Source: Aporrectodea caliginosa (taxonomy: Eukaryota > Annelida > Clitellata > Crassiclitellata > Lumbricidae). From it: a stretch of DNA of 64,000 bases. The stretch covers positions 1,655,001-1,719,000 of the forward strand of contig JACEVL010000078.1 of assembly GCA_020284085.1 (NCBI GenBank), read 5' to 3'. The translations under genes were made by a program, and so were the position numbers. This document shows, piece after piece, positions 392 to 60,223 of this stretch. The notes under the pieces were generated by a model, which saw nothing but the letters and a program-made list of their open reading frames with translations, did not search any database and had not been told where the DNA came from. Each line of letters begins with the position of its first letter. Positions within the stretch are counted from its first letter, which is position 1.

Positions 392-584
392 CTGGCATGC
401 GAGGAACTGGCGGAGGTGGACGCCTGGCAACTTTCCGCTGTCTTTCTTTTTTCATACCCTGAATTCCACCATGCTCCTCAATGAAGTTATAAATGAACGT
501 TGCAGTTTCACTGTCCCTCAGCTGCGACGGCGATATACCGATTTCACGAAAAAATGCCTTCATTTCTGAGTCCAACTTGTCCAC
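392..584 (-). CDS. Gene 1 exon 7: WASP GTPase-binding/autoinhibitory domain
   Basis: Acceptor aatctcag (phase 0) and donor G|GTAAAT (phase 1). It encodes VDKLDSEMKAFFREIGIS followed by SQLRDSETATFIYNFIEEHG and GI, very close to the WASP/N-WASP GBD (LDPxLxxLFxxxGISEAQLxDxETSKxIYDFIExxGG). It ends in a polyproline beginning (RRPPPPVPRMP). In WASP this segment folds onto the C helix of VCA to hold the protein inactive. The downstream exons lie beyond the left edge. Confidence 0.92.
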
Positions 585-3500
585 CTGAGATTAAAATATA
601 AAAAGTAACAACTGTCATAAGTATCAAAGCCATAGCTGATTCACCCACCAATGCCTTGTACATTATGATAAGAAAGCTACAAAAGTCATTGGGATTGATT
701 TGAATGATGAAAGTCATATAGGCCTACGCATCAGATCATAAACAGATTATAAACATACATACTCGGTGGTTTCATATCTAAGTTTTTATACGCGAATGCC
801 AATCGCATCAAAAGTTGTATACTGAACTTTCATCAAACGTAAACAAATGTAAAGTCTTTTTTAATAATGACTGTAAGGTAACTTAATAAAGATTTAGCTG
901 ATATGAAATGTTTGTACATCAAAGCTTGTCTTTTTTATTTATTTTATTCCAAAAGTTTAACGACATCCTATGGCTTCTATGGCCGTTGACGTCTTTAACA
1001 AGCAAAAAATTACGTATCAGTTCATTCTACATGTGAAATCGTTCGTTCCTCTTAACATTAGTTTCTTCCAATTTAGTAAGTATATACAAATTCTGTGATT
1101 TGACAGTTTACAGTTCCTTTTTTAATGGCCTTTAAGGCTCTTCTCATTCGCCATAAAGACTCCTTTTGTGGCAATTAAGCTCTTTTCCATTGGCCATTTC
1201 GGCTCTTTTCTATGGCCATTTAGTCTCTTTTAATGGCCATTTTGGCTCTTTTCAATGGCCGTACAGGCTCTTTTCATCGCTATTTTTTAACCTCTCATAA
1301 TAAGAAAATTATTTACAGAAATATTTAAAAACTGTTACATATGTAATATTATATACATTTGCATAAAACTCATTTATATACAACAATCATTTGTTATCTA
1401 ATACCTTTTTTAGACATTTAAGATCATATTTCATTCAGCTTAAGATTCACAGGTGTTTACATAACTAATCACTATATAATATTCAAATTAGTCTGAATAT
1501 GATAAGTCAACTTCACATAATTATACAGAAACCTGCATATTCCATATTAGAAAACTCGATTTATTTATACTCCAGTTAATTCAACTTATATATAAATTAT
1601 TGAATTATTATTGTAATTATTATTGAAACATCATCTATATCGTGCCAGTTAAGAGTCAATATATACATACACATACATATATACATACATGTATATATGC
1701 ACATGCACATATATATATATATACATATTTACTCATACATATATATATTCCTACATGCAATATCTACACAAAATATTGACAATGTTTATGTTTCAATATA
1801 TTATAGGGTGACTCGATAGGTCGTGAACGATTTTGAATGCATACAAATATATGTTATACACAATATAATATGGAAAGTTGTATACTGGAGGATAGGTTGT
1901 TCAAATGAGAATGTTATGCAAAAAAATTAGATTACTAACTCACTTAATAAAATTTTAGCGCCAATATCCGTGACGTCATCAAATTCGTGCCAAGCAAACG
2001 TCCATTTAGGCCGAAAACAATATTGTACGACCATCATTGTTAATCCACACATAATTAATTAATTTGACCTCTTTCTCCAGTATCTCATTAATGTAATAAC
2101 TCGAATTGACTGAAGTTTTATTTGGAATGATATGAAGTTTTGTTAATCCAAGAGATGTCATGCCTCCCACACCAGAACTGAGGGACTGAACTTCACCTGC
2201 AGTGCACATGGAGCGCACGGAACAGAACTTTCTTGTGATCCCCACACAACGTCGTTCTTACTGTTAGGTACGTGGTAGAGTTTGAAGGGCGATTCATCAC
2301 TGAACATAACACGCAACCAATCAATATCCTTAAACTTCTTCGCGAAGTTTACTCGGCGAACTTTGTAAGCATCAGCTAACTTTGGGACTTTTTGTCTCTT
2401 GAAACTCTTCCATTTCAGCGTCGTCCGCATATAGGCCTAACGCCTGATTGTCTCTGCTTCCAGCAAGGCGTTTGTCTTTTAACCGACGTTCAAACTTTCG
2501 CAAACTCTGTCCTCGTCTATATTTAGACTGTTTGATCAGTTTTTGAGCGGCAGCAGTCATCACGGACTTTCGACCACCGTGATATCGATTCCGCAGCCTC
2601 TCGTTTGGACTCTGCTTGTAGCGTTTGGCCCACTTGCTAATCCACGATTTAGAACGACCCAATTTCTTTCATATAACACTGTAACTGTACATTTCTTCCA
2701 ATAATGTAATAGCTTGAGCCCTAATTTGCGATTCATTTAAGGCCGCCATTGCCTAATCGGCGTATTCACTAGTCAATGATAATGCTGCTTGTTCACGCTT
2801 GCTTGGCACGAATTTGATGACGTCACGGATATTGGCGCTAAAATTTTAATAGGTGAGCTAATGGTCTAATTTTTTTTGCGTAACATTCTCATTTGAACAA
2901 CCTATCCTCCAGTATACAACTTTCCATATTATATTGTGTATAACATATATTTGTCTGCATTCAAAATCGTTCACGACCTATCGAGTCACCCTATATTTAT
3001 AAAATTTTCCCATCTCTTATTTTCATAACTAAGTTGTATGCTTCAAGATACAGACTTCTGATTGATAATACATTCTTGATGGTAAAGTCAACCCCCTTTT
3101 CCAAGCATTTCTCATGCAAAGTGCTCGAAATATTATGTTTCTTACATTTAACGAAGATGTGCTCTATAGTCTCTTCTTGTCTTCATCTCCTATTCTCGAC
3201 TATTTATACTCTGTAGCATCTCTAAGTTACGTACAGCATACAGAATCTCACCCGTTCCTGCTACATACACCTGAGACGTTTCAGAGCAATTCGACGTTCT
3301 GTCTCCTCCTCGGTCTTTACGTCAATAGTCCATGCCTTTATCTGCTCCAGAATTGATTACTGCAACTCTCCTTTGGTAGGCCTTCCTAAAGTGCGCCTCT
3401 CCCCTCTTCAATCTGTGCTTAATGCGGCTCCCAGGCTGATACCCCAATTGCCCTGCTTCTCCCACATCTCCTTCTATATGAAAGAACATCTTCATTGGCT

Positions 3501-6500
3501 CCCTCTCACTGCTCGTATCCAGCTTAAGGTTCTCGTTCTTATCGACCGATCTTATTCTGACCTAGCTCCCAAGTACCTCCGCTGACCTAACTTTGCCACC
3601 TCTCACCGTCCGCTTAGCTCACTTGATCGCCTTGACATTCTTGTCCCACGAGCGAGGACTGCTATGGCTAAATCTCGAGCTTTTGCCTTCATTGGGCCTT
3701 CACTATGGAACCAGCTCCTTAAATCAACTCGTTCGTTGATATTAATTAACCCGTGCTTCCATTCGCTGTCTTAAGACCACTGTTTTCGCTCGGAATCTCT
3801 CGCACTGCGAGCGCCTCTGACTGATGGTCACTGTGAGAGGCGCTTTATAAATCTATCAATACAATACAATACAATACAAGCTACTCTAGTTCACGCCTTC
3901 ATTGCCAGTCGCCTTGACTATTGTTCCTCTCTATATGTTGGCCTTCCTCAGAGTCGGATAGGGCGCTTGGAGCGAGTTTTGCGCGCGGCTGCCCGACTGA
4001 TTGGTGGCATTCCTAAGTCGGGTCATGTATCCGACTATATGCGGGATGTCCTGCACTGGCTGCCACTACCACAACGCATCTCATTTAGGGTCTCTGCCTT
4101 CGTTTGGCGTAGCCTCGTTGGCACCGCACCTGCTTATCTGCAGGAGCTATGTCGCTCTATCTCTGCCAATATTGGCCGCCGACCCCTTCGCTCTGCAGTC
4201 CGCGGTGACCTGAGTGTTCCATTTGCACGCACTTCTACAATGCAACATCGGGCCTTCTCGGTTGTGGGACCGAGTATCTGGAATGGGCTTCCTCTTGAGC
4301 TACGTCTCTTACCTAGGAACTCTTCACCTGCATTTTATACCTCTCTGAAAACTATTCTTTTCAGCCGTGGTTGAGCCGGGAGCGCTTCTGAGTAGATATC
4401 TTGAAGGGGCGCTATATTAAGTTTAATTGATTGATTGATTGATTAATCCTTTAACGACTAAAAGTATTGTTTTCACAGTAGCTTTTAATGCCTCTACTTC
4501 TGTAAAGGGTTACATAATAACGACTCTTACGTCATATGCTCCCTTTTCAGCATCCCATCCCACATGTTCTACATGCCTACAAAAGAAACCATGTCACATC
4601 ATCAGAACCAGACAACACGTTATCACAAAGACGAGTTTGCATGTACATGTATCTGGAAGAACGTCTATACAAATCTGTGATTGTAAACACACAAAAAACA
4701 CAAAAAGTTACTCATCGACCACTCCGCTCCTTGGTCAGGAGTTTTTGTTCAAGGAGTTAGGACCACTATGACCCAAAATTGATCTGTTGCCACCATTGGC
4801 CCCTCCATATATGGAAAGTCCTTCCCTCCTCTCAACGTGTTACAATAACCTTTCTTGGTCTCTACCTACAGCCTTTTCCCTCCTCAAAACCTTCTTCTCT
4901 AGGGATTCTCGCACTGGGAGCGTTACTGAATGGCCACAACTGTGAGTGGCGCTATATAAATTAATAAATACAATACAATTATTTTGAAGCTGACAGAGGC
5001 TGATGCACAGCCTGCTCATTGCTCACCTGAATTCTGTTTGAGTTCCAATATCATCCTTGGATATTTTCCCTTCCTTTTCTTTGTCCTCCTTGAGAGTTTC
5101 GATTGATGCAGGAATGTTAGACACTGGAATGGATGAAGCTAAAGAAACAGAAACAAAACAGTTTACAGAGGAAACTGACAATGAAACCACTTTTTGAAAA
5201 AATAAGAGGACCAATGCTGACTGTAATAGTTGCCACTTTCTTCCAAAGCTGCTCTAAAATCTAACAAACAGAACACTGTGGTGGTAAGTATTCAACAACA
5301 TCTTTTTAAAAATGATAGCGTAGGATAGTAACGGTTCATCCTTTCCAGTCAGAACTGTGTTAAGATATAAATTACTTTCTGTCCTGTAGGCCTCAAATTC
5401 CTGCCTCTGGGTTTGCAGTAGAGCGTGTTAACCTTAAGACTGCTGTGCCAACTTGTGATGCAGAAACTAGAATGTAGAGATATTTGCTGAAAGACACTAT
5501 CCGCAGAAAAGCTTTAGTACATTTTTCTATAGAAGAAATTTCAATAATATTTTAATTATTTACATGTTGACAAGACCTTCATAATAACATGTATGGGACA
5601 ATGTATGACATAGTGTCAAGTTACAGTACTGTGATTATTCAAGAACATTTTGATTATTTATTATCAACTGTCTTTCAATAGCGTAACCAAATACAAGCTT
5701 ACGTGTTTGGCTAACTACTGCAGGAGGAGGCGGATCTGGTCCAGTTCTCACTTTAGGTGGAGATGGAGGTCGATTATGATTCCCCATAGCACCAATATCA
5801 CCCTGTTTTGCTAATTAAACACAGATATTAATCACCTTTTATTAAAAATACATATCAACAGCCTAACACTTCTTCAGTGAATGTGTGCAGTTGGCAGGAG
5901 ATGATTTCAACATTTTTAATATGAGATATGAGTGAATGTTGAGAATAAACAAGAAACAAATTCTCTCAGGTGTCATATGTTACAGATTTTGAACAGCTTG
6001 TATAGCATCTATGTTACAAATTCACCACTTAAATAATGCAGAAATTGATGATTTAATATTTCCAACTAAATTTGCAAATCCAAAGGATAGACTGACTACT
6101 AACTCTGATTTAAGATTTAACCTTTGGAGGTTCCAGATGATGATTCGATCCTATTAGCAAACGCGGATATTGACCCAGACTCCAACTACTATAGACCTAA
6201 TACCAGAAAAATATGCTCAAGTGAATATATGACTGTAGGGGAAGTAAATGAAAGGCTCGGGACTTCTGGAGGAAGAGATCCTCACCCCACCCTGTCTATA
6301 ATGCATATAAACTGCCGAAGCTTGGCAAATAAGATAACTGACATACAGTCCCTTATAGCACAATGTAATGTAAATGTGTTAGCGGTAACTGAAACATGGT
6401 TGAGCAAGGCGGAGGCGGAGGGTGTGAGTATTCAGGGTTACCACTGTGTAAGCAAATGTAGAGACACTGGTAGAGGTGGAGGAGTAGGAATTTTTGTTAA

Positions 6501-9500
6501 AAACACACTAGAATATGAAATAATAAAAAATGACAGGATATTTTCAAAATTGAATTCCTTTGAGAGTATGATGGTAAAGATAAAACTGAACAAGGGTAGG
6601 ACAGCTTCCATTGGAGTAATACATCGTCCCTTGGGACAAGTCTTGAAACGCTGTGTTAAGAATTTTATGCATTTTTGTTGCATTGTAAGAATGAGAACTT
6701 GTTCTTGGCTGGAGACCATAACTTGGACCTGCCGAAAATGGATTCACATTTGCCCACCCGCATATTCTATAATATGTTATCATCATACCACCTTCTGCCG
6801 ACCATACTGAGACCAATTCGGATTACTCCTGACACTGCAACTTTTATTGACAATATAGGCTATAACAATGCCATTAATGTAGCAATGTTATGAAATTGCA
6901 CGACATCCACCTACCTCCATCATGAGATAGAATTTTTGAAGCAGGCTGCTGGTTAGTGAAACTAAGACAAGTAATCATCTTCCAGTAATCGCTCAAACTC
7001 GATCGGCACAAAATGTCCAGCAGAACCGTAGCTTTTTCGTAGTCACAAGACTGCTTGCAAATGAACTCTCTTTGTCTTCGGTTAAGAACTCTGAATGTGT
7101 ACAACATGCTGACGATTTCGTCACCAGTAAAATCCAGAAGGTCAACCAGTGCTTCCTGGTTAGCATCTAGAATGCTGGTCTCTAGCTCTGTCAAAGGCCA
7201 GGCTCCACCATACTCCTGACTGTATTCTACCATAACAAAAAAATTAGAATTTACTAAATAAAATATTAAAATATATAAAATTTACTAGCTTAAATAAATA
7301 TTTTGATTTTAATTTTGCAATATAGGCCTACCTTGCAGCTTATAGCTATCAGCATTGTGCTGTCACACCTCTTCAGGCAGTGAACCACGAGAGATTTATT
7401 TTATTCATTCATTAATTAGTGACCTAATAGTAATTGTTCAAGTACTATCTCAAATGCAATTATTTACAATAACACTTGATAATTAATTGATTGATTGATT
7501 GATTGATTCATTCATTCATTCATTCATTCATTCATTAAGAGCATTTATATAGCACCCCTTCAAGAAGCTACTCAGAAGCGCTCCCGGCCCAGCCACGACT
7601 AAAGAAAAAGACTTGAGGGACTTGTAGAACCCTGCCGGATGGCTCAAAAGTAAAGATCGGAGTTTAAACGGGAGGTCATTCCAGATGGAAGGTCCCACAA
7701 CCGAAAAAGCACGGCGCTGCTTAATAGCCAATCGAGCCCGTGGAAATAGGAGATCAACCCTCTTCGTAGATCGAAGCGCCCGATGCGCTGCAACGTCGGA
7801 CACTGGGCGGCAAAGATCACTCAAGTAAGATGGCCAAGAACGCAGCGAGAAACCACAGCAGCAGTGCGGTATGAGATCCGCTGAGACATAGGCATCCAGT
7901 GCAACACATCACGTATGTATGCAGAGACAGGAGAGAACTTAGGAAGTCGTCCAATAAGACGAGCAGCCGAGCGTAGAACTCGATCTAGTCGCCCCAGAAC
8001 CCCAAGGGGAAGGCCAGCAAGTATAGGAGCAACAGTTGTCAATTCGACTAGTAACAAAGGCGTGAACAAGGATCACGACCGCATCGTGAGAGAGAGCGAG
8101 AGACCACTCGAAGCTGACGAATGTGATAATAACAACTCCGTGCAACCAGGTTCACATGTTGAGACAAAGTATAAGCTCAGAGTCAAGAGTAAGTCCCAGA
8201 TCACGAACTGTGACGGAAAAAGTTATGTGAGGAAAGAGCAAGGTAAGTTGTGAAAAGTCGATACCCTGAAGTTGCCTACGGCCACCCAGCCAAATAAGTT
8301 GTGTTTTAGAGGGATCTAAGAGTAGCCGATTGGAGGCCATCCAAGAAGAGAGGACATCCATAGTCAGACACATCTGGCTTACAGTAGCCACCGCATCCGC
8401 CGAATGGATGTGGATGTAGGCTTGCACATCATCGGCAAATAGTTGGTGCAGAAGCCCCTGAGACGCCAGCAAGGGGCAGACATCAGCAATATAAAGAAGA
8501 TATAGCAGTGGGCCCAAGACAGAACCATGGGGCACCCCAAAAGGGTCGGGGACCCAAAGAGACCTGGACGAACCAAGGACTACACAGTTTGAGCAATCAG
8601 CTGGTTAGCAACAATGCGTTCCAGTACTTTAGATAGAAAAGTAACGTTAGCAATGGGGCGATAGTTTGCTGGATCACTTTGATCCAGACCATCGCGCTTC
8701 AAAACTGGTAGGAGAACGGAGCGTTTCTGTGAGACGGGTAAGCACGCCTCACGGATCGAACAGTTGCACAGAATAGTGAGGAAGGGAAGGAGATCGTCAA
8801 TAAGTTCCTGAACAAGAAATGTTGGTGCAGGATCCAGCTCGCACGTCTTGGCGGCAGAGGAGAGGATGAGTCGACGCAGCTCCTCGCTCGAAATCTCCTG
8901 GAGTGCAGAAAGCCGATGCTCCGTGGTAGAAAACGTAGGTGGTGAAGAGTCGGCGGTGGAACTCCGAATGGATGAAATCTTGGCAGAGAATCGCTCCATG
9001 AATACCTCTGCAGAGAACGGCGGAGGAGACTCCGACTGTCGACCACCCCTCTGACAGCCAAGAAGGCCATTGAAAGTGGCCCAGAGCCTCTTCGGCTCCT
9101 TCGACTGGCGAGTGATGATGTTCTCCCAGTATTCACGTTCTCCGGCGCGGCACGAGGCATGCATTTCTCTAACGAAGCGGACCCACGCGGCCCGATCAGC
9201 TGGAGAGCGCGTTCTTCTCCAGATTCTCTCAAGTTGTCTTACATGTCGTCGGAGCTTCCGGCACTCTGCATCAAACCACGGAGAAGACGGACGGTAGCGC
9301 GACTGAATGCTGCGCACCGGTAGAAAGGTGTCTATGAGACCAGACAACGCGGTCTCATAAGAGCTGAACAACTCTGTTGTAGAGCGCCCGGTGGACGACT
9401 GAAGATCGGCAAAGAGAGGATGAGCTCGGAGTGCTGAACGGAATACAGAATGGTCAAGACTTTTCCCTTGACGGATCTGACGAACGGCGATGAGAAGAGG

Positions 9501-11204
9501 CTCATAGATGAAGGGAATTGAGGCAGCGATGAGACCATGCATGGTCGGAGAGAACAGGAGGAAAGACAGTCACATCTGACACCCGACAGTCATCTCTGGT
9601 GACGATGACGTCGAGCCAGCCACCCAGCAAGTGAGTGGGTTCTGTGACACGTTGCTTAAGCCCGAACTGTTCCAGAACCGCAGCAAATTCCATGGATTCC
9701 GAGAGCGATGAGTCCTCTAGATGTAAGTTGAGGTCCCCGGTGAGAACCAGCTGCGTGTTGTGAAGCGCAAATTGTTCCAATAGAGCCAAGAGCTCTTCGA
9801 AGAACGCCGACGAGGGAGGGGACACTGGTCACTATAGATTACAATGACATTGGTCACTATAGATTATAGGATGACATTGGTCAGAATAGGTTGCAACATC
9901 ACATTGGTCACTGTACACTGTAGGTTGTAAGGTGACACTGGCCACTAGAAGTGCAATAAAACATTGGTCGCTAAAGGTATATACAATAACATTGATCACT
10001 GTATGTTGCAAGATGACATTGGTGTTGTGAGATGACATTGGTGTTGTGAGATGACATTGGTCATTATAGGTAACTAAAGGTAGGTTGCAAGATGACACTG
10101 GTCAGTGGTCACTATAGGTTGTAAGAAGACACTGTTAACTACAGGTTGTAAGATGACATTGGTAACTTTAGGTTGTAAGATGACATTGGTTATTGAAGAC
10201 TTAAATAGATTGCTGCGAAAATGCAGTATTTTATCGGTATCTCAAGCAGAGCTGGGTAACTAATCGATTAGCTTCTAATCGATTAGCTAATCGATGAGAC
10301 CAAGCAGCTATTTCTAATCGATTAGCTACAAGATTTTGTTAATTCTAATTCTAATCGTTTGGCAAATTTCAGTAGCGAATTCTAATTCTAATCGATTAGC
10401 AATTTAAACAAATTGTGCCCATCTCTGGTCTAGTGTTTAGATAACTCTGACATAAAATATTGTAAAGAAAACATGAGCTAACTTAAATTAAATTGAACTG
10501 ACTCGTTTTACTGGAAAACTGCCACTCTGTTGTAGTTCTAAAAATATTCTGAGTGTCATTAGTCAAAAAACAGTTGATAAAAAGAGTGAACTGCCCTTTA
10601 TCTTAATAAAAAAAGTTGCAGACATCCACAATTAAAATTTACGGAACCAACCTCCTTTGGCAGTCACGTAGTTGACTAAATGTTCCTGATGGGTGTCTTT
10701 AAGTGCATGAAAAAGTTCTGTAAGTTTCTCATTTTTAGTTACAAATTCCAACAACCGTGAATTCTTCTCGTGAGATGTGCTTAGCTTTCTAACTTCTTCA
10801 ATCACTTCTCTTGATAAAGCTTTCAAGGTCAACAGTTTGTCCAGAATACCAAAGTCTGGATTCATTCGCTCAACAAGCACTTTGTTAATTTCTGGTATCG
10901 CAACATTGTTCAACGTATTTTCGTTTATTTCAACTGAAACGAAACAAAAGAATTCATGACCATAAACCACGACAGCTGCCCTGAGGTAAGTCAGTCAGAG
11001 AAGCAAACGTGGACCACATCATCATCAGTTGCTCACAATATTATTTGTATTATTATTATTATTTTTTGCCCCGAGGTATACAGGATCCCTCAGGGACTTA
11101 GAAATTACTAGCTGATGTAATTTGTCTGGAGATGACCCTACTCGTCGTTGTTATTATTATTATTAATATTAATATTATTACTAGTAGTACTATTATTATT
11201 ATTA

Positions 11205-11280
<76 letters not shown>

Positions 11281-11633
11281 GCATTTATTAAGAACCACAA
11301 CCTAATGAACAAGCATCAATCGATGGTGCTGAGCACCAGACATTCACAATTCCACATGCAACATAAAATCGGTGCTGTAAATAGTCATTCCATTAGATTC
11401 GTTACAATTGGATAAAATGAACAAGCTCCTCATAATAAATGGTGAAAGTTGACTTTCCAATTGTCAGTGTAGGACTTCTTCGAGGTACCTATACATGAGC
11501 CAGCTTGCTGGAGGTTTGAATTCGTGCTTTCCTCATAACAAAGCAAGCGCTCCATCTAATCAGCTAACACACTCAAAATAATTATCAATCTTAAACTCTC
11601 TCTCACACACACACGCGCGCGCACACACATACA

Positions 11634-11726
<93 letters not shown>

Positions 11727-13382
11727 TTACCAGAAGAACCTACTCAACTTTTGCATATACTGGAGCCTCATTATAACACACTTTATTATAAGGTGAATTC
11801 TAATATAAGATGGTAAGGGATTTTGATATCAAAATCTGTTCAGCTATAGAAAATAAACTTGTTCTAAAACAACTTTATTATAAGGCAGTTTTTTATATGG
11901 CTCACAAAGACAGAGTTAGAGTGAGTTTCTGGTATATAATTATTTAATTTGTGCTTATCATTTCCCAACTTCAGTAAGAACAATCTGAAGTTTTACTCAA
12001 TGTTAAAGACCCTCACAACCGTGGAAACCATTTAAAACAGCATTTGAACAAACTAACTTAGACCATCAGGCAGTCTATATCAAGTGTCAAGATAACTAAT
12101 AATAATAATAATAATATCTTTTCTTTAATTTAGCGCCTGACAAACGCACTGCGCTGTACATTTACATGTTATGCAATTGAAACAATCTTAACTAGTTAAC
12201 TACTAACAGAACAGACAGCTTGTAATACACGGCGCTAATAGCAGCCTACAAAGCAAATCCGCCCTAACGGGGCTCGAACTCGGTACCTCTCGCACTCTTC
12301 GCCAGATGTTATCCAACGCGCCACCGGACCCCCCAGCGGATTGTCCGTTAAGGATACGAAGGAAGAATTCACTCAAATGCAGAGAACACGAAGGAAGGGT
12401 TTCGCCAAAATTAATGTAATGTTGGACTTTCAATTTGGCAAGTAATTTAAGTACAGCCTGTGTCTTAAACACCAACTTCAATCAGACAGTAGGCAGTCTG
12501 TTATGGAAGTTCTAGGACTGTTCATCAAAGTCCTTTTCATCAAGGGACTGTTTATCATGAGAACATTTATCGTTTTAGCGTTCTTTATTATGTACTCATT
12601 ATAGCATATCGCTTCACCGTTTCATATATGAGACATTTTAATACCAATGTCCATGACAAATTTGGCTCTTCATTATGTCTATTTGTGACTGCTTGCTTCT
12701 GAAACTTAAGCACCAGTCCTTTTTTATTTTTCATCAACCCTATTTTTGCCGCCCCTGCGCAAGTACCGCCCGGGGCGACTCGCCCCCTCTCTGCCACCCC
12801 TTCGGTACGCCACTGTCTAGCACTGATAAATCTAGACGTTAAATATCCTGCTGGGTCTTTAATATTTGGTAGAAAATTGATAGTATCCTTACCTCAGTTT
12901 AGCATGCAAGAAAATGACTCGATGTAAATCATATCGGCAGTTTGTATGCATTATTACTGTGAATAATTTGTTTTTACCGACATATTTCTCAGAAGGCATA
13001 ACCTCATCTAGTCATCTTGCTATACTATACCTTAGCTAACATTCGGCTACTTTATTCTTACCTTATCGAAGCTTACCTTACCCTACTTAACATTATCTTA
13101 TTTTAACTTATATAATATTACGTTATAGAACATTTCCTTACTTTACCTAACATTAACGCCTTATGCCTAGGGTTTGTTCATATGCGTTTTATTGCAGCCT
13201 TTGGACTGTCCTTTTCAGCCGGGGTTGGGCCGAGAGCGCTCCTGAGTAGTAACCTTGATGGGGCGCTATATAAATCTCCGTAATGAATGAATGAGTGAAC
13301 ATAATTATTCCTCCTGACCTGCTGCTGGCTTATTTGCAGAGACACTTTCTGCCTGGCTGGGAGTTGGTGGCTCAGCCATCAT
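392..13382 (-). CDS. CARD-CARD-WASP-like gene (gene 1), 5' part, seven exons, runs off left edge
   Basis: Exons in transcript order are 13319-13382, 10652-10933, 6915-7226, 5703-5810, 5027-5138, 4531-4576 and 392-584. They join in one open frame of 372 codons plus one base (phases 1,1,1,1,2,0,1), every junction being AG/GT. Predicted order: N-terminal leader (about residues 1-21), CARD-like domain 1 (22-115), CARD-like domain 2 (116-219), proline-rich linker (220-255), CRIB (about 278-308), GBD (308-350), polyproline start. WASP proteins normally begin with a WH1/EVH1 domain; here two CARDs take its place. By family knowledge, GTP-Cdc42/Rac binds CRIB and releases the C-terminal VCA module to activate Arp2/3, while CARDs make homotypic contacts in apoptosis and innate immune complexes. 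The VCA exons should lie left of position 1 because gene 2 has them just after the homologous GBD exon. The domain reading is strong; the coupling of CARD signalling to actin is inference. Confidence 0.8.
1120..1285. repeat. Minisatellite, units near 22-28 bp
   Basis: Six or seven imperfect copies of a unit like GGCCATTTNGGCTCTTTT lie in tandem within the gene 1 intron between GBD exon and micro-exon. The rest of 585-1120 is AT-rich intron with no gene seen. Confidence 0.75.
1650..1765. repeat. AT/ACAT-rich microsatellite
   Basis: Alternating atatac, acatac and atatat runs in the gene 1 intron. The preceding 1286-1649 is AT-rich with nothing recognisable. Confidence 0.7.
1804..2993 (-). mobile_element. 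Tc1/mariner-type DNA transposon, defective
   Basis: Inverted repeats of nearly 200 bp begin gggtgactcgataggtcgtg and end in the complementary sequence, flanked by TA on both sides as expected for Tc1/mariner. The interior codes on the minus strand, across frameshifts (2662 down to about 2006), for a helix-turn-helix region (GRSKSWISKWAKRY) and a DDE segment with LRVMFSDESPFKL and VKFSPSVLVWEA followed by LGLTKLHIIP. The C-terminal catalytic part is missing, so it is dead but perhaps mobilisable in trans. Confidence 0.85.
3330..3880 (+). mobile_element. LINE 3' fragment (CR1/L2-like)
   Basis: The sequence encodes remnants of the post-RT region (LNAAPRLIPQL, HLHWLPLTARIQLKVL) and ends with gagaggcgctttataaat plus an atacaatacaat tail. 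It is 5' truncated and frameshifted. It sits in a gene 1 intron in antisense orientation. The stretch 2994-3330 is intron with nothing clear. Confidence 0.7.
3884..4440 (+). mobile_element. LINE 3' fragment (CR1/L2-like), second copy
   Basis: An open 135-codon stretch (3967-4374) encodes the C-terminal part of a non-LTR retrotransposon polyprotein: VLRAAARLIGG, DVLHWLPLPQRISF, APAYLQEL, HRAFSVVGPSIWNGLPL, LKTILFSRG. It ends with gggagcgcttctgagtag, a ggggcgctatatt tail and (TTGA)n. It is inserted directly behind the previous fragment and about 90 bp from micro-exon 6. Confidence 0.8.
4531..4576 (-). CDS. Gene 1 exon 6: 46-base micro-exon, second half of CRIB
   Basis: Acceptor cttttgtag and donor GTAAGA. 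After completing an Arg codon it encodes HVEHVGWDAEKGAYD. This is the CRIB core H-x-x-H-V-G-W-D, split from the preceding I-S-x-x-D-I-G at the same place as in vertebrate WASP genes. It starts in phase 2 and ends in phase 0, exactly what the flanking exons need. It is too short for an ORF scan and was found by looking for the HVGW codons between the flanking exons. Confidence 0.88.
4765..4975 (+). mobile_element. LINE 3' tail fragment
   Basis: Ends with gagtggcgctatataaatta and an aatacaatacaat tail, the same family signature as at 3880. Short and non-coding, in the intron between CRIB exons of gene 1. Confidence 0.6.
5027..5138 (-). CDS. Gene 1 exon 5: basic region and first half of CRIB
   Basis: Acceptor tttctttag (phase 1) and donor AG|GTGAGC (phase 2). 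It encodes a lysine-rich stretch then KISKDDIGTQTEF. This matches the WASP pattern KKISKADIGxPxxF: basic residues for PIP2 contact and the start of the CRIB motif (I-S-x-x-D-I-G). All core residues are intact. Confidence 0.85.
5139..5702. other. Gene 1 intron, duplicated in gene 2
   Basis: No exon seen. The stretch about 5316-5700 matches 31670-31800 and 33240-33620, including the run up to the proline-rich exon, so introns were copied together with exons. Confidence 0.65.
5703..5810 (-). CDS. Gene 1 exon 4: proline-rich linker
   Basis: Phase 1-1 exon with acceptor taattag and donor C|GTAAGC. It encodes NRPPSPPKVRTGPDPPPP followed by AVVSQT. Such polyproline tracts in WASP proteins bind profilin and SH3 domains. 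Here the tract precedes the CRIB, whereas in vertebrate WASP the main proline-rich region follows the GBD. It is clearly homologous to the gene 2 exon at 33629-33778 (RTGP.PPPP.VVSQ). Confidence 0.7.
6124..6892 (+). mobile_element. LINE endonuclease-domain relic
   Basis: An open frame gives an apurinic-type endonuclease N-terminus: LSIMHINCRSLANKITDIQS, VLAVTETWLSKAE, GRGGGVGIFV. After a frameshift near 6630 it continues in another frame with LFLAGDHNLDLPK and ITPDTATFIDNIGYNNAI. No RT follows. Likely a 3'-truncated or recombined non-LTR element in the gene 1 intron between CARD 2 and the proline exon. Confidence 0.75.
6915..7226 (-). CDS. Gene 1 exon 3: CARD-like domain 2
   Basis: The acceptor is ttatggtag and the donor is G|GTAGGT, phase 1-1, with 103 codons. 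Key stretches are ILDANQEALVDLLDF, DEIVSMLYTFRVLNRRQREF, ATVLLDILCRSSLSDYWKMI and CLSFTNQQPASKIL. The LLDIL-R-x5-Y-x-x-[FM]I-x-CL-x-x-T-x-Q run is characteristic of CARD helices 4-6. The domain is only about as similar to CARD 1 as distant CARDs are, so the pair looks old rather than freshly duplicated. A LINE endonuclease relic ends about 20 bp downstream of the donor. Confidence 0.8.
7540..9832 (-). mobile_element. CR1/L2-like LINE, 5' truncated, internally deleted
   Basis: Read from 9825 downward: end of the endonuclease (LVLTGDLNLHLED, LGGWLDVIVTRDD), a linker and RT start (9542-8580: PSSPWFDAECRKLRRH, PVLKRDGLDQSDPANYRPIA), then RT with GSVLGPLLYLLYIADV and the FADD catalytic box (8535-8152), then a C-terminal region (VLRSAARLIGRLP, AFSVVGPSIWNDLP) and 3' tail. 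RT blocks between 8580 and 8535 are missing and frames shift, so it is inactive. It lies in the intron between the two CARD exons, ends in (TTGA/TTCA)n at about 7480-7540, and is in sense with gene 1. Confidence 0.85.
9832..10195. repeat. Minisatellite of about 24-33 bp units
   Basis: About a dozen imperfect copies of a unit like GATGACATTGGTCACTATAG plus GTTGTAA are arrayed in tandem, directly at the truncated 5' end of the LINE. In one frame it gives SDQCHxxxY repeats, which I take as chance. Confidence 0.85.
10255..10405. repeat. Short direct/inverted repeats of CTAATCGATTAG
   Basis: Several overlapping copies of the palindrome ctaatcgattag and derivatives within 150 bp, AT-rich, in the intron between CARD exons. 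Confidence 0.6.
10652..10933 (-). CDS. Gene 1 exon 2: CARD-like death-fold domain 1
   Basis: The acceptor is tttcag and the donor is G|GTTGGT, both phase 1; the exon has 93 codons plus split codons. The protein is alpha-helical with a death-fold pattern: LVERMNPDFGILDKLL, then ALSREVIEEVRKL, then a C-terminal block NSRLLEFVTKNEKLTELF followed by HALKDTHQEHLVNYV. The last block matches the CARD helix 5-6 signature (FxxALxxTxQEHL). One exon per CARD with phase 1-1 borders is the classic shuffling-compatible layout. It could be another death-fold subfamily, but CARD fits best. Confidence 0.75.
11150..11282. repeat. (ATT)n microsatellite
   Basis: Long uninterrupted att runs; any polyisoleucine frame through it is an artefact. 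The stretch 11283-11595 holds nothing recognisable. Confidence 0.95.
11600..11725. repeat. (AC)n-(AT)n microsatellite
   Basis: Compound acacac followed by atatat. Sequence 11726-12090 is AT-rich intron with no gene seen. Confidence 0.95.
12095..12336 (-). mobile_element. tRNA-derived SINE
   Basis: Read on the minus strand, it starts with a tRNA-like head: A-box GGCGCGTTGGATAAC and B-box GGTACCGAGTTCGAGCCCCG. A body with GCTGCTATTAGCGCCGTGTA follows, and the tail ends in an aat simple repeat at the low-coordinate side. The same family occurs at 40957 (+) and as a tail fragment at 16540. Confidence 0.8.
13195..13290 (+). mobile_element. LINE 3' tail
   Basis: Contains gagagcgctcctgagtag, ggggcgctatataaat and an aatgaatga tail. 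It ends about 30 bp downstream of the gene 1 exon 1 donor, in antisense. The region 12340-13194 contains only a possible hAT-type end (gtacgccactg near 12810) and otherwise nothing clear. Confidence 0.7.
13319..13382 (-). CDS. Gene 1 first coding exon, start Met
   Basis: Two adjacent in-frame ATGs (13382 and 13379) are preceded two codons upstream by an in-frame TGA, so translation should begin here. The exon encodes a short Pro/Ser/Ala-rich leader (MMAEPPTPSQAESVS...) and ends in phase 1 at a GTCAGG donor. The split codon becomes Val at the next exon. The leader has no signal peptide or membrane segment, which fits a cytosolic protein. An 88 bp stretch covering the ATGs and upstream leader is repeated at about 16648-16735. 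Confidence 0.65.
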
Positions 13383-15775: not shown

Positions 15776-16381
15776 AGAGACATAGATAACTGGTCACCCT
15801 AATATGCCTAGTCTATATAACGCACGGAAACGGAAATGTTTACGGAAAAGGAATTATGTTCGTGCAGCCAGGTTTACCCCGTCAACAACACACAATTGCG
15901 CCACCAGAACACTGTCTTGTGTCAAAGCACATGCAAAGTGGCCTATTGCCAGAGTACTGTAACAGTTCAATTTTAAAATCAAATTTGTCAGTTTGTTTCG
16001 GTGTTCAAGTGGGTTTATTTTCCTGCAAAGTTGAATAAGGAAGCGACATCAACAAGTTTTCTTACACTGCATCGATTTCCAAATCAGTTGGAATAGAGTG
16101 TTATTTTCGTCGTTGTTCAGTAGTTGCAAATGTTGATTTTCTGCTCTCGACTTTCGCGAATTACCTGCCACTTTCTGATCAAATAAGTTCCCAATAGGAC
16201 ACGATAGAAGCAAATATTGCAACGAGAAATTTCATCAACGAACAATAATCCACCAACGACAAGATCTTTCGTCGCCACGGTCCACTGCCTCCAAGGATAC
16301 GCTCCACGACACTTGCACTTTCTCTTTCAACCATTAAGGTTCCGTTTTTGCGCCTCTTCCAATGACAAAATTGTCCATCTG

Positions 16382-21606: not shown

Positions 21607-22569
21607 TAGAAATGAAAGATATCATAGTCTTTGTTGAATTGCAACAGAAGTTTTGTGTGCAGTTTATTTTCATCAATAAGAACAATCTTGAGCTGTGATT
21701 TAAATGACTCTACAGATGGCGCATCCTTTGAGTGCATCGAAGACATTGAACGCATTCAATGACGAATTATTTCACTAATTTCTCGGTTTACCTCATTTTC
21801 ATAGCCTATATAATTAATATACAGGCACGTAGCGAGACTTAAATTCAAGAGGCGGGCAACTTCACAGACCATTGGCAAAATCCTGGTCATTGTGGTCAAT
21901 AGAAGTTCCAGTATAATTATTAAAAAAACAAGAGCATGCAACTGCCTCCTTGTGCCTCAATGTGGCTACGCCTATGGTTATATATTATGTCATAATCAGT
22001 GCGGCAGAGAATTGGCCTGTCAAAAGAAGCAGTTAAATGTCCAATAGCGATTACGAATGAGTTCTTGAAACATCACACGTCTGAAACAATATATATACTA
22101 CATTCTGAGATAGTACGTACATAAATTCAGTGCGCATTCTAGACGCATACTGTATTTGTATTGTATTGTTTTTTCAAATTTGTAAAAAAAATATACTCTT
22201 ATCGGGAAATAGAGTTGACGCTGATTTCATTAAGGACACTTACAATGTCAGGTGGATCATTAAATCAGTTGCTCAGTATAAGCTATGTTCATGTTTAGTA
22301 CATTTTATTTCAAGCACCATTACAGGGGCTTCACAATTTCAGATGCAATGTTGCATACAGCCATGACCTAGAATATGATTCAAATTTTCTGTAAAACTAA
22401 GAGTTGTACGTGTTAGCCTAGTAAGAAGATGTGCCCCACCCCATCAGTGCTTCGTTAATATTTTCAGTGACAGTACGGAGCAGAGGAGCAACATTTTGTT
22501 TCATGATGATGCAAATCATTAACTCTCAGACTAACTGAAATGACTGGGCCAAATACGAGAGTAGCCTAC

Positions 22570-23715
22570 CAGAGGCGCGTTTACCAGTAGGCGGACTAGG
22601 CGCGCGCCTAGGGCCCCCAAATCTTGAAGGGGCCCCCAAACGAATTAAAATATTTTTTCAATAATAAAAAATAACATTTTAAAATTTAGAATTATTTTAA
22701 TTTTTTCAATATTCTTTGCAGCTTGGCATTCACATAAAAGAATAATATACTTTTATTATTATTGTAATTGTAAAAGAATATTTTTTATAATTTATAATTG
22801 CGTTGTTCATTTGGGCAGCAATTGGGCAAATAATTCATTTTTGTGTAAAATAATATCAAACTTGTTAGCAACAAGCAGCAATGGGCGTCTGCTGCAGTTT
22901 AGGCCTACGTGTCCAGAGATTTCGAAACTGCATGGGGTGCAAACAGCCAAACATTGGTGAAACAATTCCAAGGGGTGCGGGGAAAGCAGAAAAGATTGGG
23001 AACCCCTGCTTTAATCTGATTATTCCTTCATTTTATAGTGTTCAAAACTTTTATTAGTATTGATAACCAGTAAGTAAAAGTAATTGAAATTTTAATAGTA
23101 TTAAAATAATATTGATTACAATCTGATGCAACGAAACGTTGCTAATATTCTGGAGCTGCAAAACGAAACAAGATAGCTCTAATGACAATATTGTGGAATT
23201 CGCTGAAATCAATCAATAAATCAATTTTCCTTTATCAAAATAAGTTGACAACAACGCAACTTATAGGCCTACGAAGAATAAATGCTGAAAAGAGTAAATG
23301 CCACTAGCAAAGCTCTGCAGGATCAAAGACTATGTTTGTCGAATTATTTAATTCTTGAATTCTTTAACAATTTTGCTCAAAACGTCAGAAAAATTTCCTC
23401 AAAATAGAGACAGAGGTTAAACTTAAACTTGGTATTGAAAGCGATTTTGACATTGCATATGAAGACGAACAGCCTCAGAAAATGTAAAAGAAAAAGTACT
23501 TTTTTTTAACTGCCAAGAATGAGGTCATATTAAGGACTAGAAAAATTCATTCTTGGCACCTTAAACATCGTGTGTGACAAAAACGGCTTCAAGTTCAACT
23601 TTGTAGGTTTTTTGCACATGATAGGCTAAACACCACCAGAGTTCAGACTTCGAAGTTCAGAAGGGTCCCCAAAATCTTTGCGCCTAGGGCCCCGTTTTCT
23701 GTAAACGCGCCTCTG
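22570..23715. mobile_element. hAT-type element with 8-bp target duplication
   Basis: The ends cagaggcgcgtttac and gtaaacgcgcctctg are inverted repeats flanked by identical tagcctac (22562-22569 and 23716-23723). The 1146 bp interior is AT-rich with no readable transposase. It lies just past the gene 2 3' end. Confidence 0.9.
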
Positions 23716-23775
23716 TAGCCTACTGGGGAGTTTCATCAGTACCCTGCAACAGATGCTCATACAGAACAACAAAAT

Positions 23776-23960
23776 AATGAGATCAAACAAACCTAGCATT
23801 CAAAGTGCTGTAACTAGTCAAAATGAAATGAACTATTCAAGATTCCTTCTAACTAATGTTCAAACAGAAAAAACATAATGAGATCAAACAAACCCAGCAT
23901 TCAACGTGCTGGATACTAATCAAAATGAACTGAACTATGCAAGATTCCTTCTAACTTCGT
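23776..23960. repeat. Tandem duplication of about 110 bp in gene 2 3' flank
   Basis: Two adjacent copies of a segment beginning gagatcaaacaaacc and ending aagattccttctaact, with a few mismatches. Confidence 0.75.
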
Positions 23961-24081
23961 GTGAATCAACATAGAGAAGTGCAAAAAGACCCAAAGTAAA
24001 CAATTTTCCGCAAACTTCTTTCAGAAATGATGTACCATTGAAACTCAACAGACAGCGAAAAGTCAAAGGCAAAGCATTCCC

Positions 24082-24087
24082 TTTAAT
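24082..24087 (-). terminator. Candidate poly(A) signal of gene 2
   Basis: ATTAAA on the minus strand about 80 bases after the stop codon at 24168; no AATAAA is closer. Confidence 0.35.
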
Positions 24088-24167
24088 GCACTTCCCATAG
24101 AGAACAAGCTGCTTGATGATTACAGAAAATGTCTACGGATTATGATGACAGTTGATGATTGTGTTGA

Positions 24168-24229
24168 TCAACTTCCGATTTCGTCAACCCAGCTGTCGTT
24201 TTTGTCCACTTCATCGTCGTCATCATACT
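24168..24229 (-). CDS. Gene 2 last exon: acidic (A) motif and stop
   Basis: Acceptor gtgacttttag, phase 1 entry. It encodes EYDDDDEVDKNDSWVDEIGS then TGA. The acidic run with a single Trp (DSW) is the Arp2/3-binding A motif. Unlike vertebrate WASP, the Trp is not within the last four residues but has six residues after it. Confidence 0.88.
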
Positions 24230-24636
24230 CTAAAAGTCACAGTCCAGTCAACAAAAACGAAACATCAGTGCAGAACATACAACAATCACAAATGCATCTA
24301 ATACCATCAAGAAAGCATTGGTCCGGCGCTGCAAGGGCCTGGCTCCTCCATATCTGCGGGAACTCTGCAGCCCTACTGTGACTGTTCCGCGTCGTGGCTC
24401 GTTACGCTCAGCGGCAGAGTTCCTTGTCCCCGTGCTCGGACTGCTAACCGACAGCGCCGCGCCTTATCTGTGGCTGGCCCAGTGACCTGGAATGGGCTTC
24501 CGGTGGCACTGCGTCTGACGTCAATAGGACACTCTGCTCAGTTCTTCTCTGGCCTTAAGACTGTCCTGTTTGACCGAGGTTGGGCTGGGAGCGCTCCTGA
24601 GTAGACTGTCTTGAAGGGGCGCTATATAAAACTACT

Positions 24637-24727
<91 letters not shown>

Positions 24728-27700
24728 GAGACCCTTCGATTGCCCCTTCAATGGGGTCTGCTTGACACTGAACATCTTACGATTATACAATTATCACGTA
24801 ACAAAAGCGCTTTGGTTCTGAGTTTTTTTTTCACAGATGCCTACAAATAGCATGGATGAAACGACTGTGGAACCTGTCGTCCAAAATGTCTCTAGTCATC
24901 CATGCATTTTTATTGTTCACTTTTATTACGTGCAGTTTGTCTCTGTTCTAATAAGTAAAATAGCAAGGATGGTGAAATCAACCAACGAGAAAACAGATTA
25001 AAGTTTATGGTTGACTGTCTTGTTTCTACAAAGATGAAAAGTTCCTCAGTCTTTCAATCTATAAAATCAGCTGTTCACGACTTTTATAAGCGAATGCTGA
25101 TGCTTATCTGACAGTAGGATTGTCAGTCATCCATTTATTCTTCATGGGAATTAGGCATAAGTGCATACAACAACTCAGTGAACTCACATGCGGTCCATTG
25201 ATTTATTATCCAAAGACGACATGCCAGTTAGTCAGGTACCCACTCAAAATGAACCTGGGTACCTGGACAGCATTTAATTAAAACTTTTGGACCTCTACTT
25301 GAGATATGCTGTGGCACCTCTTAATCTGATTTCTAAGTGACTGGCAGACTTGGAATGACTTGTCCTTCACTAGGTTTCCACATTCGTCACTTATGCCCAG
25401 ATATTTGTGCACCCTTCTGCCTCGACTACGCAAACCATGGCTTGTCAAGGAAGCACATTGCTACATGCAGACTTTAATACTGCAACCTTCAAGAAAATGG
25501 TGGCAAAAAGTCTAAATCGGAACTGTCATATTACCACAAGAGATAAGTCGAATGAATTAAATTCACTACCTGGTCTCAGTGCTTTTCCACGTGCTTTCAT
25601 GGCTTTCCACAGAGCGTCTGCAAGGCTATGTTTTTCAGGTTCAGGTTTTGGACGATCAGCTGGAGCTGGCGTCACCTGAAACATACACCCAACTGACAGT
25701 GAGAAGTAAGTGGTCAGAATTAGCCATATGCAAGGTAGGTAGCACTGAGATAGCACCGTAGTGAGCAACACAGTTTTGTGCTAGTCTCTCACCAATGTAC
25801 CTGATGTTCACAATTCAGTACTCTGAGTGAAGATATGACACCAATGTTTAGAAACACTAAGAAATGTTGTCTCACTTTTGCAATTCAGACAAAACCTTCC
25901 TCAAACCAATGTCAAAGTCAAGTTCAACTTTATAAATACATATGTATAAATATAAATACATATATATATACACACAGGCATATACACAGATACAAACATA
26001 TATATAAGCATATATATACATATAATGTACATGTATACATATTCATTCATTCATTCATTCTTCGTTTATTGAATCCCAAAAATCAGCAAAAGAAAATACA
26101 GACATGAAACATTGACATGAGTATTGAGAAACAACCGATAGACCCAGAAGGAACAGAGTTCCGCTTGAATAGGGTCACCAAATTAAAGGCAGTACAGATG
26201 GCGACGAAGAACAGTCGTCTTTCTAATTAAACATGCATCGAAGTCTTAACTATGACAACAAAAATTGGATCATATACGAGTCATTTTCCGGTAACATGGT
26301 AAATTCAGAATTCAGCTGTCCCCGGTCATTTCTCGAAAAACTATACCTAGTCTGATTATGCTAAGTGTTGATATTAAAATGTATTTGATCAGTCAACAAT
26401 TTCAGATATTTGAAAGTAATTTAAAGCACTAACCTAATTTATTAAAAATTTATTTTCAATTTAAAATGTTCCACTCCGTTACTGTCCCTAGGCTCTAGTA
26501 CTTATTGCTTTAGTCTACAATTTCGAAATGATTTGTATTGAGCCAAAAAATTCACGTGTTTCTTATGTATTATATATTTGTGTATGTTTTAAAATACAAC
26601 TTGGTGAACCGGATCTTCAGCATAATTAAAGGAAAATTTTTAAAACTTGTCCCCAGGAATTATGTATACTCCGTTACCATGTAAAAAATTAATCTTCTAT
26701 CTCAGAACCATTCAGTTTTGTGGTCGCGCAACTAGACTCATCTCGTAATCTATGTAAGCTATTTATATCTTCACCAACGATATAAATGGTTCGACAATTT
26801 TCATACGAATTTTCATTTATTTCGTACCAGATGTGTTTTTATTATACGGCCACTCCGTTACTGCATTTTTGCCATGATTATAAATGAATCTAATTCCAAT
26901 AATATTTGTAATATAACGCTTATAAGCAAAATAATGATTTCACCAACGATCGATGTGGACGCGTGAGCGATAATATGGTATTTACCGTGCTTCAACCCAA
27001 ATTGTCTACTCCGTTACCTGTCCACTCCGTTAACATTTATTTGGTAACGCATGGGACAGTTATGTAACGGAGTGGAAAAATTGTGTTCGACACTCGAAAG
27101 ATAGTAACGGAGTGGAATTATTATAGGCTAAATGGTGTGGTATTTTGATGCTGTGAGCAAATTTTTAAGACAATACCATAAATATTTTAGTGTTTTCTGT
27201 CTATTCGATCACTGGGAATGATTGCTCAAGTGATTTCTTTTCAGTTGTTTGGGCAAAAATATTTATTCAACTTAACATTAAATGCTTTTATTTCCATAAC
27301 GGAGTGGACCTTTTTCTAAATAAATGAAACTGTGATGGAATCAAATCATTATAAGTTTAATAATTTCTTTTATTTCTATTTTATAAATATTAATACTAGA
27401 AACATATTGGAATGTCAAAATACACAACAGAAGCTGTACAATGTATAAAACAGATCTCATATGTATACAGTAACGGAGTGGACAAATATTTTAGTAGGGC
27501 TATTCTTTTCTACCAAAAACTTTTTACATTTACATATTAGTGCAAAACCAAATATATATTTGTGAAATAGAAACATTCAAGATTTGTTCCAAAGAAAAAA
27601 AACTGTATTTAAAAAAAATTTTTTTTTTGCTTGTTGAATTTGTGAATTTGCCATGTTACCGGAAAATGACTCATACATGACCTACTGAACAGAGAGTTAA

Positions 27701-55403: not shown

Positions 55404-56315
55404 GTCGCGGAAAACCCCTCTCTCTCTCTCAGTCGTCTGGTTAGACGATTCGAACCCTTCTTCTTGAGGCGAGGGTAGAGGTTTCTGCGCAGGAGGCAAA
55501 TAGTCTCGCGTGTCGCTCGAAAGAGCGCAGGTCCGGCGTCTGGAGTATAGCAGACGGCTTAAGGCGCTCGCCGTTGACGACGTTCTCAAACCAACCAAGA
55601 CAAGTCAAAGTCACTAGGTTTTGAACCCGTATATTGCTGCCAAATCGTCCACCAACTCTATCACGGTCACACAGACCAGCAACGGCAGACAATATCTCAA
55701 TCGTATCAAACACCAGGTCACCAAGTCAGAGCACACAGCAATCACCACAGCAAGACCGTCAGCAAGTTCTCAGCAAGTTAAAATACTACACACAAGCGCC
55801 CTCTATATATACTACTAAAGAGGGGGGGATACCTCGTGCAAGGGCCGGTCGTGCAAGGCCCGGGGTTCGTGCAGAAGCCGGACGGGGAAGGGGATACCTC
55901 GTGCAGAAGCCGGACGGGGAAGGGGATACCTCGTGCAAGGGCCGACCGTGCAGAAGCCGGAGTTCGTGCAGAAGCCGGACGGGGAAGGAGATACCTCGTG
56001 CAGAAGCCGAGCCGCGGGGGAGATATCTCGTGCAAGGGCCGGACGGGGAAGGAGATACCTCGTGCAGAAGCCGGACGGGGAAGGAGATACCTCGTGCAAG
56101 GGCCGAGCCGCGGGGGAGATAGTTCGTGCAGAAGCCGGACGGGGAAGGGGATACCTCGTGCAGAAGCCAAGCAGGACACACACGGACAAGCAAAGGGACA
56201 GAACACAGGACATGCACACATAGGCACAGTGTCACGGCAGAGACACGACACATAGGCACAGTGACAATTATGCACTCAAAAACCCAAGCATGCCAGACCA
56301 GCTCCCGGGGAGGGC
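55404..56315 (-). repeat. 3' LTR of the Gypsy element
   Basis: Matches the 5' LTR, with a slightly longer ct run at its low-coordinate end and a gc insertion near 55634. The internal repeat spans about 55840-56170. Confidence 0.9.
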
Positions 56316-56949
56316 AACCCCTAAATTCCTCTACATCCTCCCCCCACTACTAATGGGAATGTCCCCATTCCCGGGGAGACAATCATCGGCAAAACCCCTA
56401 AAACAAAGCATGGCTAACGGCTAAATCCCCAGAGTCCACAGCACGGCTAAAATCCCAAAGTCCGAAGCACGAAAATACAGCACGGCTAAAACCCCAAAGT
56501 CTGATAACGAGGGCTGATTAGCAGCCAAATACTCTAAATTAAAAGTCGCAGAGTCTCTGCCTAAAATGTTCGAATCAAGTGGCCAACGGCCCGAGAAGTC
56601 TCTAATTAAAATCAAACAGTTCGAGTGGCCCATGGCCCGAAGAGTCTCTGAAAACAATTATGCGTGGCTAATGGCTAAAGAACTCGCACAAAATTAAACA
56701 ATGCGGCGGCCAACGGCCCAGACAGACAATCAAAAACTCTCGCCGTTTCTCGGGCAAACAAAACAATGGCAACAAAGGTGCCCACAGTCTCAATTACAAT
56801 TACGCGGCCAACGGCCCAGACAAATAATTAAAACTCTCGCCGTTTCTCGGCAAACAATTAAAGGCAAAACATCACACAGAAAAGAATCTCTTAAAAAGTC
56901 AGAGTCCATTCAGAGTCTGTTCAAGGCTGGCATCGTTCTGGATCAGAGT
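56316..56949. other. Untranslated region between pol remnant and 3' LTR
   Basis: Contains two or more imperfect copies of a segment with gcggccaacggcccagaca and ctcgccgtttctcgg (56702-56760, 56807-56860) and related cggctaa-type words from 56410 on. No ORF. Confidence 0.6.
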
Positions 56950-60162: not shown

Positions 60163-60223
60163 CGGTTGATTCTATCGTCGTCGGCTGGCGGAAGACTCGA
60201 ACTCCACTTCTTCTGGTACCAGT

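Follow-up and report, generated by a model that had tools for sequence, protein, structure and literature searches.

A candidate earthworm gene joining two CARD domains to the Cdc42/Rac-binding part of WASP

Alignments with both parent families show that the window, i.e. the whole 64,000-nucleotide stretch of the Aporrectodea caliginosa genome analysed here (C77:1655001-1719000), holds a chimeric locus, in which a copy of the 5' half of a leader-CARD-CARD-X gene came to lie beside a WASP copy without start codon and WH1 exons. We propose that this locus encodes a CARD adaptor that would sense active Cdc42 or Rac, a tail-less protein that would not itself activate Arp2/3, and we give this reading a probability of roughly 0.45. 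In mammals, the link between CARD signalling and the surveillance of Rho GTPases runs through separate proteins, and here a single gene would unite both. As both parent families are still in the genome, the steps of its origin can be retraced. If the proposal is true, the locus would be a simple test case for the gain of a sensor by exon capture in immune families. It would also bear on whether animals, like plants, make decoys from proteins that microbes attack.

The initial annotation had described seven exons in one frame with consistent splice phases, and our own reading of splice sites and frame in the window re-derived them: seven minus-strand exons join to 372 amino acids. All six internal acceptors are AG, all seven donors are GT, and exons 1 to 7 are entered in phases 0, 1, 1, 1, 1, 2 and 0. 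The product starts with the leader MMAEPPTPSQAESVSANKPAA, encoded together with the start codon by exon 1 (13319-13382), followed by CARD1 in exon 2 (10652-10933) and CARD2 in exon 3 (6915-7226). The next four exons derive from exons e5 to e8 of WASP. They encode, in order, a Pro-rich stretch (exon 4, 5703-5810), a basic stretch with the start of the CRIB (exon 5, 5027-5138), the CRIB core HVEHVGWDAEKGAYD (exon 6, only 46 bases, 4531-4576) and the GBD (exon 7, 392-584). In this CRIB the CRIB Pro is Gln, which counts against the proposed adaptor. Exon 7 closes with a donor at position 392, and the gene thus runs past the window start.

The CARD and PBD profiles proposed as a check in the initial annotation both score above their curated Pfam cut-offs in the joined protein, CARD at 4.1e-12 over two stretches and PBD at 2e-7, and residues 235-367 match N-WASP structures at 5.4e-21. 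Pfam gave no match to NACHT or LRR in the joined protein, and Rfam (gathering threshold) and tRNA scans gave no matches. Other models of the locus were discarded. A chance joining of ORFs is contradicted by the paralogous exons that occur in the same order elsewhere in the genome, and a wrong leader exon by the conservation of the leader at C364. The CRIB, at first sight missing, is provided by the 46-base exon at 4576-4531. As for a WASP gene with the CARDs as alternative first exons, it is contradicted by a WASP exon 1 with GTG for ATG and a one-base insertion, and by e2-e4, which were not found.

Taken alone, CARD1 passes the Pfam CARD cut-off (4.2e-8). CARD2 alone stays below it (6.9e-4, 20.0 bits for a cut-off of 23.9); among its relatives P0003 passes with 24.5 bits, and those of C364 (23.3) and C925 (23.8) fall just under. 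With a profile made from CARD1 and two paralogues, the nearest solved relatives are BCL10 (0.0024) and CARD8 (0.0067), and the best match of CARD2 is NLRC4, weak at 0.053. AlphaFold2 models of both domains are of low confidence, with three long helices for CARD1 (pTM 0.39) and six helices for CARD2 (mean pLDDT 41.8, pTM 0.29). As these models are poor, the assignment of the CARD fold rests on sequence. P0003 is the one contig retrieved by a protein-database search with the CARD part; it is probably genomic, since its flanks resemble intron read-through.

The first parent is a large family of the same genome. A search of its 1.1 Gb with CARD1 and CARD2 returned at least 151 matches, with same-order pairs at C364, C592 (twice), C925 and C918, and many more CARD1-CARD2-like matches at about 35-50% identity, all of these being lower bounds. 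Among the matches listed, the five closest paralogues share 79-83% identity with CARD1 and 67-81% with CARD2. At C364 and C925, CARD1 and CARD2 are followed by X, a terminal exon that encodes about 140 amino acids and a stop codon. X gave no Pfam match over the cut-off and no PDB match, and Pfam did not identify it as TRADD-N; it could represent an immune adaptor domain not described before. Leader-CARD-CARD-X genes are found on many contigs (e.g. L038 6719-9424 and L039 5386-9569), and X displays a motif around GHSVNLYVLCETVEELIHLRNLLTSGELQ. We checked 98 CARD2-type exons taken from those of the 151 matches that were listed, leaving aside CARD1-type and weaker matches and those of the window itself, and 78 of them have an X match on the same strand no more than 15 kb further downstream, a count made with many, not all, of 150 X matches. 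X was not found near the other 20, which may carry other back halves.

The window gene has the leader, CARD1 and CARD2 exons in family order, with phase-1 introns. Its leader has the same length and donor phase as that at C364:453176 (MMAEPPILNQAESVSANMPAA), and upstream of the ATG the homology with C364 runs on for about 180 bases, which indicates that the leader and the start codon of the window gene come from the CARD family. Perhaps its promoter does as well. This family membership bears on a reading in which the WASP exons would form a separate transcript and the CARD exons would have their own, unseen terminal exon. Such an arrangement would agree with the X exon in which both paralogues read, at C364 and C925, finish, and with its frequency behind the 98 CARD2-like exons checked. 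However, none of the 150 X matches scored, out of 191 candidates, is on C77, and the relic of the 3' end of an X exon that we aligned in the window (11353-11457, minus strand) is upstream of CARD1 rather than after CARD2. A separate WASP transcript would also have to do with a local exon-1 relic that has no ATG. We regard two genes as highly improbable; phase, spacing and the absence of the family's X exon support the assignment of the whole exon set to one predicted gene.

The second parent is represented by the ordinary WASP gene of the genome, on C501, which has 11 exons and encodes 515 amino acids: WH1 in e1-e4, a Pro-rich part in e5, the basic stretch and CRIB in e6-e7, the GBD in e8, Pro/WH2 in e9, the central part in e10 and the acidic end in e11, the names of the tail parts (e9-e11) having been assigned by eye. 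Exons 4-7 of the window gene match e5-e8 exon for exon and in order, surrounding intron sequence included, and the WASP homology begins at 5993 and ends at 139, before e9. As e4 and CARD exon 3 both exit in phase 1, the exon swap preserves the frame. Searches of the locus with WASP (tblastn and blastn) did not find e2-e4 and detected upstream of the gene, outside it, only a relic of the exon-1 region (15965-16271, minus strand), with GTG for ATG and a one-base insertion. We do not class the gene as a member of the WASP family because WH1 was tested and is absent, while the basic-CRIB-GBD part is present by the PBD and N-WASP matches above. The initial annotation had seen in it a WASP gene whose WH1 domain was replaced by two CARDs. 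The WH1 exons are indeed gone, with the CARDs in their place, but leader, start codon and upstream sequence of CARD-family origin make it look rather like a member of the CARD family that acquired the switch of WASP.

The neighbourhood holds further WASP copies. The ATG-to-GTG change is shared by each of the four exon-1 relics that we found on C77, and the WASP cluster of this contig thus seems to stem from a single copy without start codon. Copy U, a second, partly decayed copy aligned to WASP in the window (22307-34223, minus strand), comprises an e1 relic, e3, e5-e8, a second partial e6-e8, e9, e10 and e11, with no CARD exon among the matches listed there. It retains e9-e11 (within 29.5-24.1 kb), yet several of its exons are damaged. 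More partial WASP copies, some of them inverted, form a second cluster with several CRIB-GBD modules at C77:1390-1431 kb (L027-L031).

Homology to the CARD family stops at 6905 and that to WASP sets in at 5993; the interval contains a LINE-type endonuclease fragment on the plus strand (6124-6807, Pfam Exo_endo_phos 4.8e-7). As the introns match in phase 1, a splice from CARD2 to the Pro exon of WASP is possible. By eye, the intron that separates exon 6 from exon 7 contains, at about 1801-3000 on the minus strand, a transposase remnant between inverted repeats, which we take to be Tc1/mariner-like.

The gene very probably extends beyond the window start, to judge from the exons found there. Directly to the left are 5,000 N (C77:1650001-1655000), either a gap in the assembly or sequence that was withheld, and past them, at C77:1648634-1642165, two more e6-e7-e8 sets, W2 and W3, have GT/AG sites, open frames and Pfam PBD matches (2.6e-11 and 1.6e-9, respectively). 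The e6-e8 unit is a module that runs from phase 1 to phase 1. The full gene would probably have 13 exons and encode 614 amino acids, arranged as leader-CARD-CARD-Pro followed by three basic-CRIB-GBD modules with no WH2-acidic tail; if the last donor is unused, this predicted product terminates with PSTSGK just past the third GBD. The exon join across the N stretch is inferred, and the real length of that stretch may differ from 5 kb. Sulfatase-like frames, noted by eye, lie downstream of the array on the minus strand (C77:1596716-1599230).

No e9-e11 set was found in C77:1585001-1650000 or elsewhere after the gene in readable sequence. Genome-wide, WASP tail exons were found only at C501, in copy U and at C77:1.43 Mb, and remnants of the Pro-rich e9 at C77:1.42 and 1.41 Mb. 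The triggering of Arp2/3 that the initial annotation had foreseen is thus left unsupported, as no WH2, central or acidic exons follow the gene in readable sequence. Only the 5-kb N stretch could hide such a set. In that case the protein would be a CARD-driven actin nucleator, with WH2-central-acidic exons inside the N stretch and Arp2/3 activated by CARD oligomers or by Cdc42. The resemblance of the GBD to that of N-WASP is in keeping with this possibility. Furthermore, the N stretch starts about where e9 would be expected, and the 4.4 kb that separate e8 from the stop codon in the C501 gene could fit into it. Nevertheless, the tail exons are absent at the gene in the readable assembly, the WASP homology is already over at position 139, ahead of e9, and the intact W2 and W3 modules past the N stretch require an upstream start. 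A nucleator of this kind therefore seems to us very unlikely.

Whether the chimera is maintained by selection was addressed by comparisons with both parents. Relative to C501 WASP, all seven exon indels in the window copy (W), W2 and W3 are in frame, and only 9 of 80 intron indels are multiples of three (Fisher test, 2e-6; 4e-4 when four independent exon indels are assumed). Over e7-e8, dN/dS between the canonical WASP and W, W2 and W3 is 0.44, 0.33 and 0.21, respectively, and among the modules it is 0.38 for W-W2 (p 0.038), 0.25 for W-W3 (p 0.0001) and 0.27 for W2-W3 (p 0.0048). For the copies U1 and A3 the corresponding values relative to canonical WASP are 0.85 and 0.74, neither of them significant. 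In the CARD half, the CARD and leader exons have no indel relative to C364 in 658 bases, for 23 in 907 bases of non-coding flanks. Over both CARDs dN/dS is 0.51 for W-C364 (p 0.026) and 0.43 for W-C925 (p 0.001); for CARD2 alone, W-C364 gives 0.67, which is not significant. In a neutral simulation of the 372-amino-acid part, which assumes that all divergence postdates the fusion, 3.7 stops and about 10 frameshifts were expected; none is observed (joint probability 9e-7). Constraint on the gene is thus likely, though softly shown, and part of it may be older than the fusion.

These data also have to be weighed against a dead or recent chimera, that is, a frame fused by accident in a setting of decaying duplicates of WASP and CARD genes, which yields no useful protein. 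Broken WASP copies and transposon pieces surround the gene, and its WASP-derived exons change at a rate close to that of the introns: base changes in exons and introns amount to 0.139 and 0.159 for W, 0.130 and 0.145 for W2, and 0.146 and 0.129 for W3. Codon changes unique to the window copy of CARD2 are in excess on the nonsynonymous side, nine to two. Low dN/dS relative to canonical WASP is also found in copies without CARDs (A1 0.22, A2 0.37, A5 0.55), and the U1-A3 pair of decayed copies gives 0.18 with few changes, which makes dN/dS a soft measure here. Copy A1, from the 1390-1431 kb cluster, may be functional still, or recent. Similarly, three of the four aligned exon indels of copy U are in frame. 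Moreover, database searches with the whole 372 amino acids, the CARD part and the CRIB-GBD array returned no such protein. Decay without function is nevertheless difficult to reconcile with a 372-amino-acid frame free of the stops and frameshifts predicted for it under neutrality, with modules 2-3 that have neither, with splice sites that have been kept and with exon indels in W, W2 and W3 exclusively in frame. Copy U, with the same loss of the start codon, is damaged. We consider a dead chimera unlikely, if a serious contender.

In known WASP proteins, the CRIB binds GTP-loaded Cdc42 or Rac and the GBD binds the VCA. The initial annotation's idea of a CARD hub under Cdc42 control is consistent with the CRIB motifs of the window gene. 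On the most economical view, GTP-loaded Cdc42 or Rac, e.g. over-activated by a bacterial effector, would be bound by the CRIB array, which would concentrate many copies of the protein on a single membrane patch. The tandem CARDs would then nucleate a CARD assembly and thereby recruit caspases or BCL10/RIP2-type partners. The GBDs might offer additional bait or sequester VCA tails. With three CRIB-GBD modules in a row, the protein would bind with higher avidity and might act as bait for bacterial proteins that bind N-WASP. As the predicted protein has no WH2-acidic tail of its own, it should not switch on Arp2/3.

A GBD array might alternatively work in trans: scaffolded by the CARDs, it would bind the VCA of ordinary WASP and restrain actin assembly at immune complexes. 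Three GBDs with no VCA found in readable sequence, and an ordinary WASP with a VCA encoded in the same genome, would suit such an inhibitor. However, the action of GBDs in trans is an extrapolation from other WASP proteins, and the CRIBs have been retained along with the GBDs, which suggests that GTPase binding matters. We hold inhibition in trans to be quite improbable.

The proposed Cdc42/Rac-sensing adaptor has a counterpart in mammals. In the part of PMC8268748 that deals with NOD1 and NOD2, the Salmonella effector SopE promotes the interaction of NOD1 with RAC1 and CDC42, leading to NF-kB activation, and bacterial proteins that bind N-WASP are named. As in NOD1/NOD2 sensing of Rac1/Cdc42 described there, an active Rho GTPase would be coupled to CARD signalling. 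Unlike these receptors, the window protein has no NACHT or LRR match and has its own built-in GTPase-binding motif. It would represent a one-protein version of the NOD1-Rac1/Cdc42 activation link.

Guards and integrated decoys of mammals are laid out in the sections of PMC11781737 considered here, and the window protein resembles their integrated-decoy receptors NLRP1B and CARD8 in that a domain targeted by pathogens is fused to a death-fold output. It differs from them in that it has no nucleotide-binding receptor. The protein might thus be an integrated decoy of an animal, in which a CARD-CARD family captured the CRIB-GBD part of WASP, a piece of the actin machinery which bacteria exploit or over-activate by way of Rho GTPases, and tripled it as bait, and in which an effector that activates GTPases or binds the GBD would trigger the CARD alarm. 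The form is that of a decoy, as the WASP CRIB-GBD adjoins the CARDs in frame according to predicted splicing. We put this extension of the adaptor reading forward as doubtful.

As for novelty, the whole 372 amino acids retrieved two WASP-like matches from the protein database. The CRIB-GBD array retrieved 69 proteins among the best 7992 candidates scored, with WH1 listed in 66 of the 69 and a CARD in none, in agreement with the initial annotation, which knew of no WASP protein with CARDs; the best match with a named organism is from the snail Batillaria. No CARD-WASP or CARD-CRIB fusion was found in the literature searched, most subscription journals being outside its reach. In the earthworm genome itself, the CARD pair and WASP exons occur together only at the window locus, among the matches listed. 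The window gene shares the Pro-rich, basic, CRIB and GBD parts with WASP and N-WASP (WAS, WASL), and does so exon for exon with the WASP gene of its own genome. In contrast to these, it has CARDs instead of WH1, no tail was found for it and its CRIB-GBD unit is probably present three times. With the leader-CARD-CARD-X family it has the leader, CARD1, CARD2 and intron and upstream sequence in common, and it differs from that family by WASP modules in the place of X.

Large families of marine invertebrates, as presented in the portion of PMC8195603 used here, combine a constant part made of a death fold and TRADD-N with variable C-terminal regions. The likeness to the window gene lies in the constant death-fold front, the changeable back and the lineage-specific expansion, and the difference in the back half, as one derived from WASP is not named in that portion. 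By this analogy, the window gene fits the constant-front/variable-back way of building genes, with the WASP switch as the putative variable part.

Elsewhere in the window, positions 55625-61092 carry a likely LTR retrotransposon with near-identical flanking repeats, and its 1073-amino-acid frame (56950-60171, minus strand) contains zinc-knuckle-like and protease-like stretches, all recognised by eye. In the genome, COX1 is found twice at equal score, at C70:3435453-3436790 and, on the last contig, at C4544:4612-5949. Translated with table 5 and judged by eye, COX1 makes sense with AGA as Ser, ATA as Met, AAA as Lys and TGA as Trp, a code that points to a protostome or similar animal. Perhaps C4544 is the mitochondrial genome and the C70 copy a nuclear insert.
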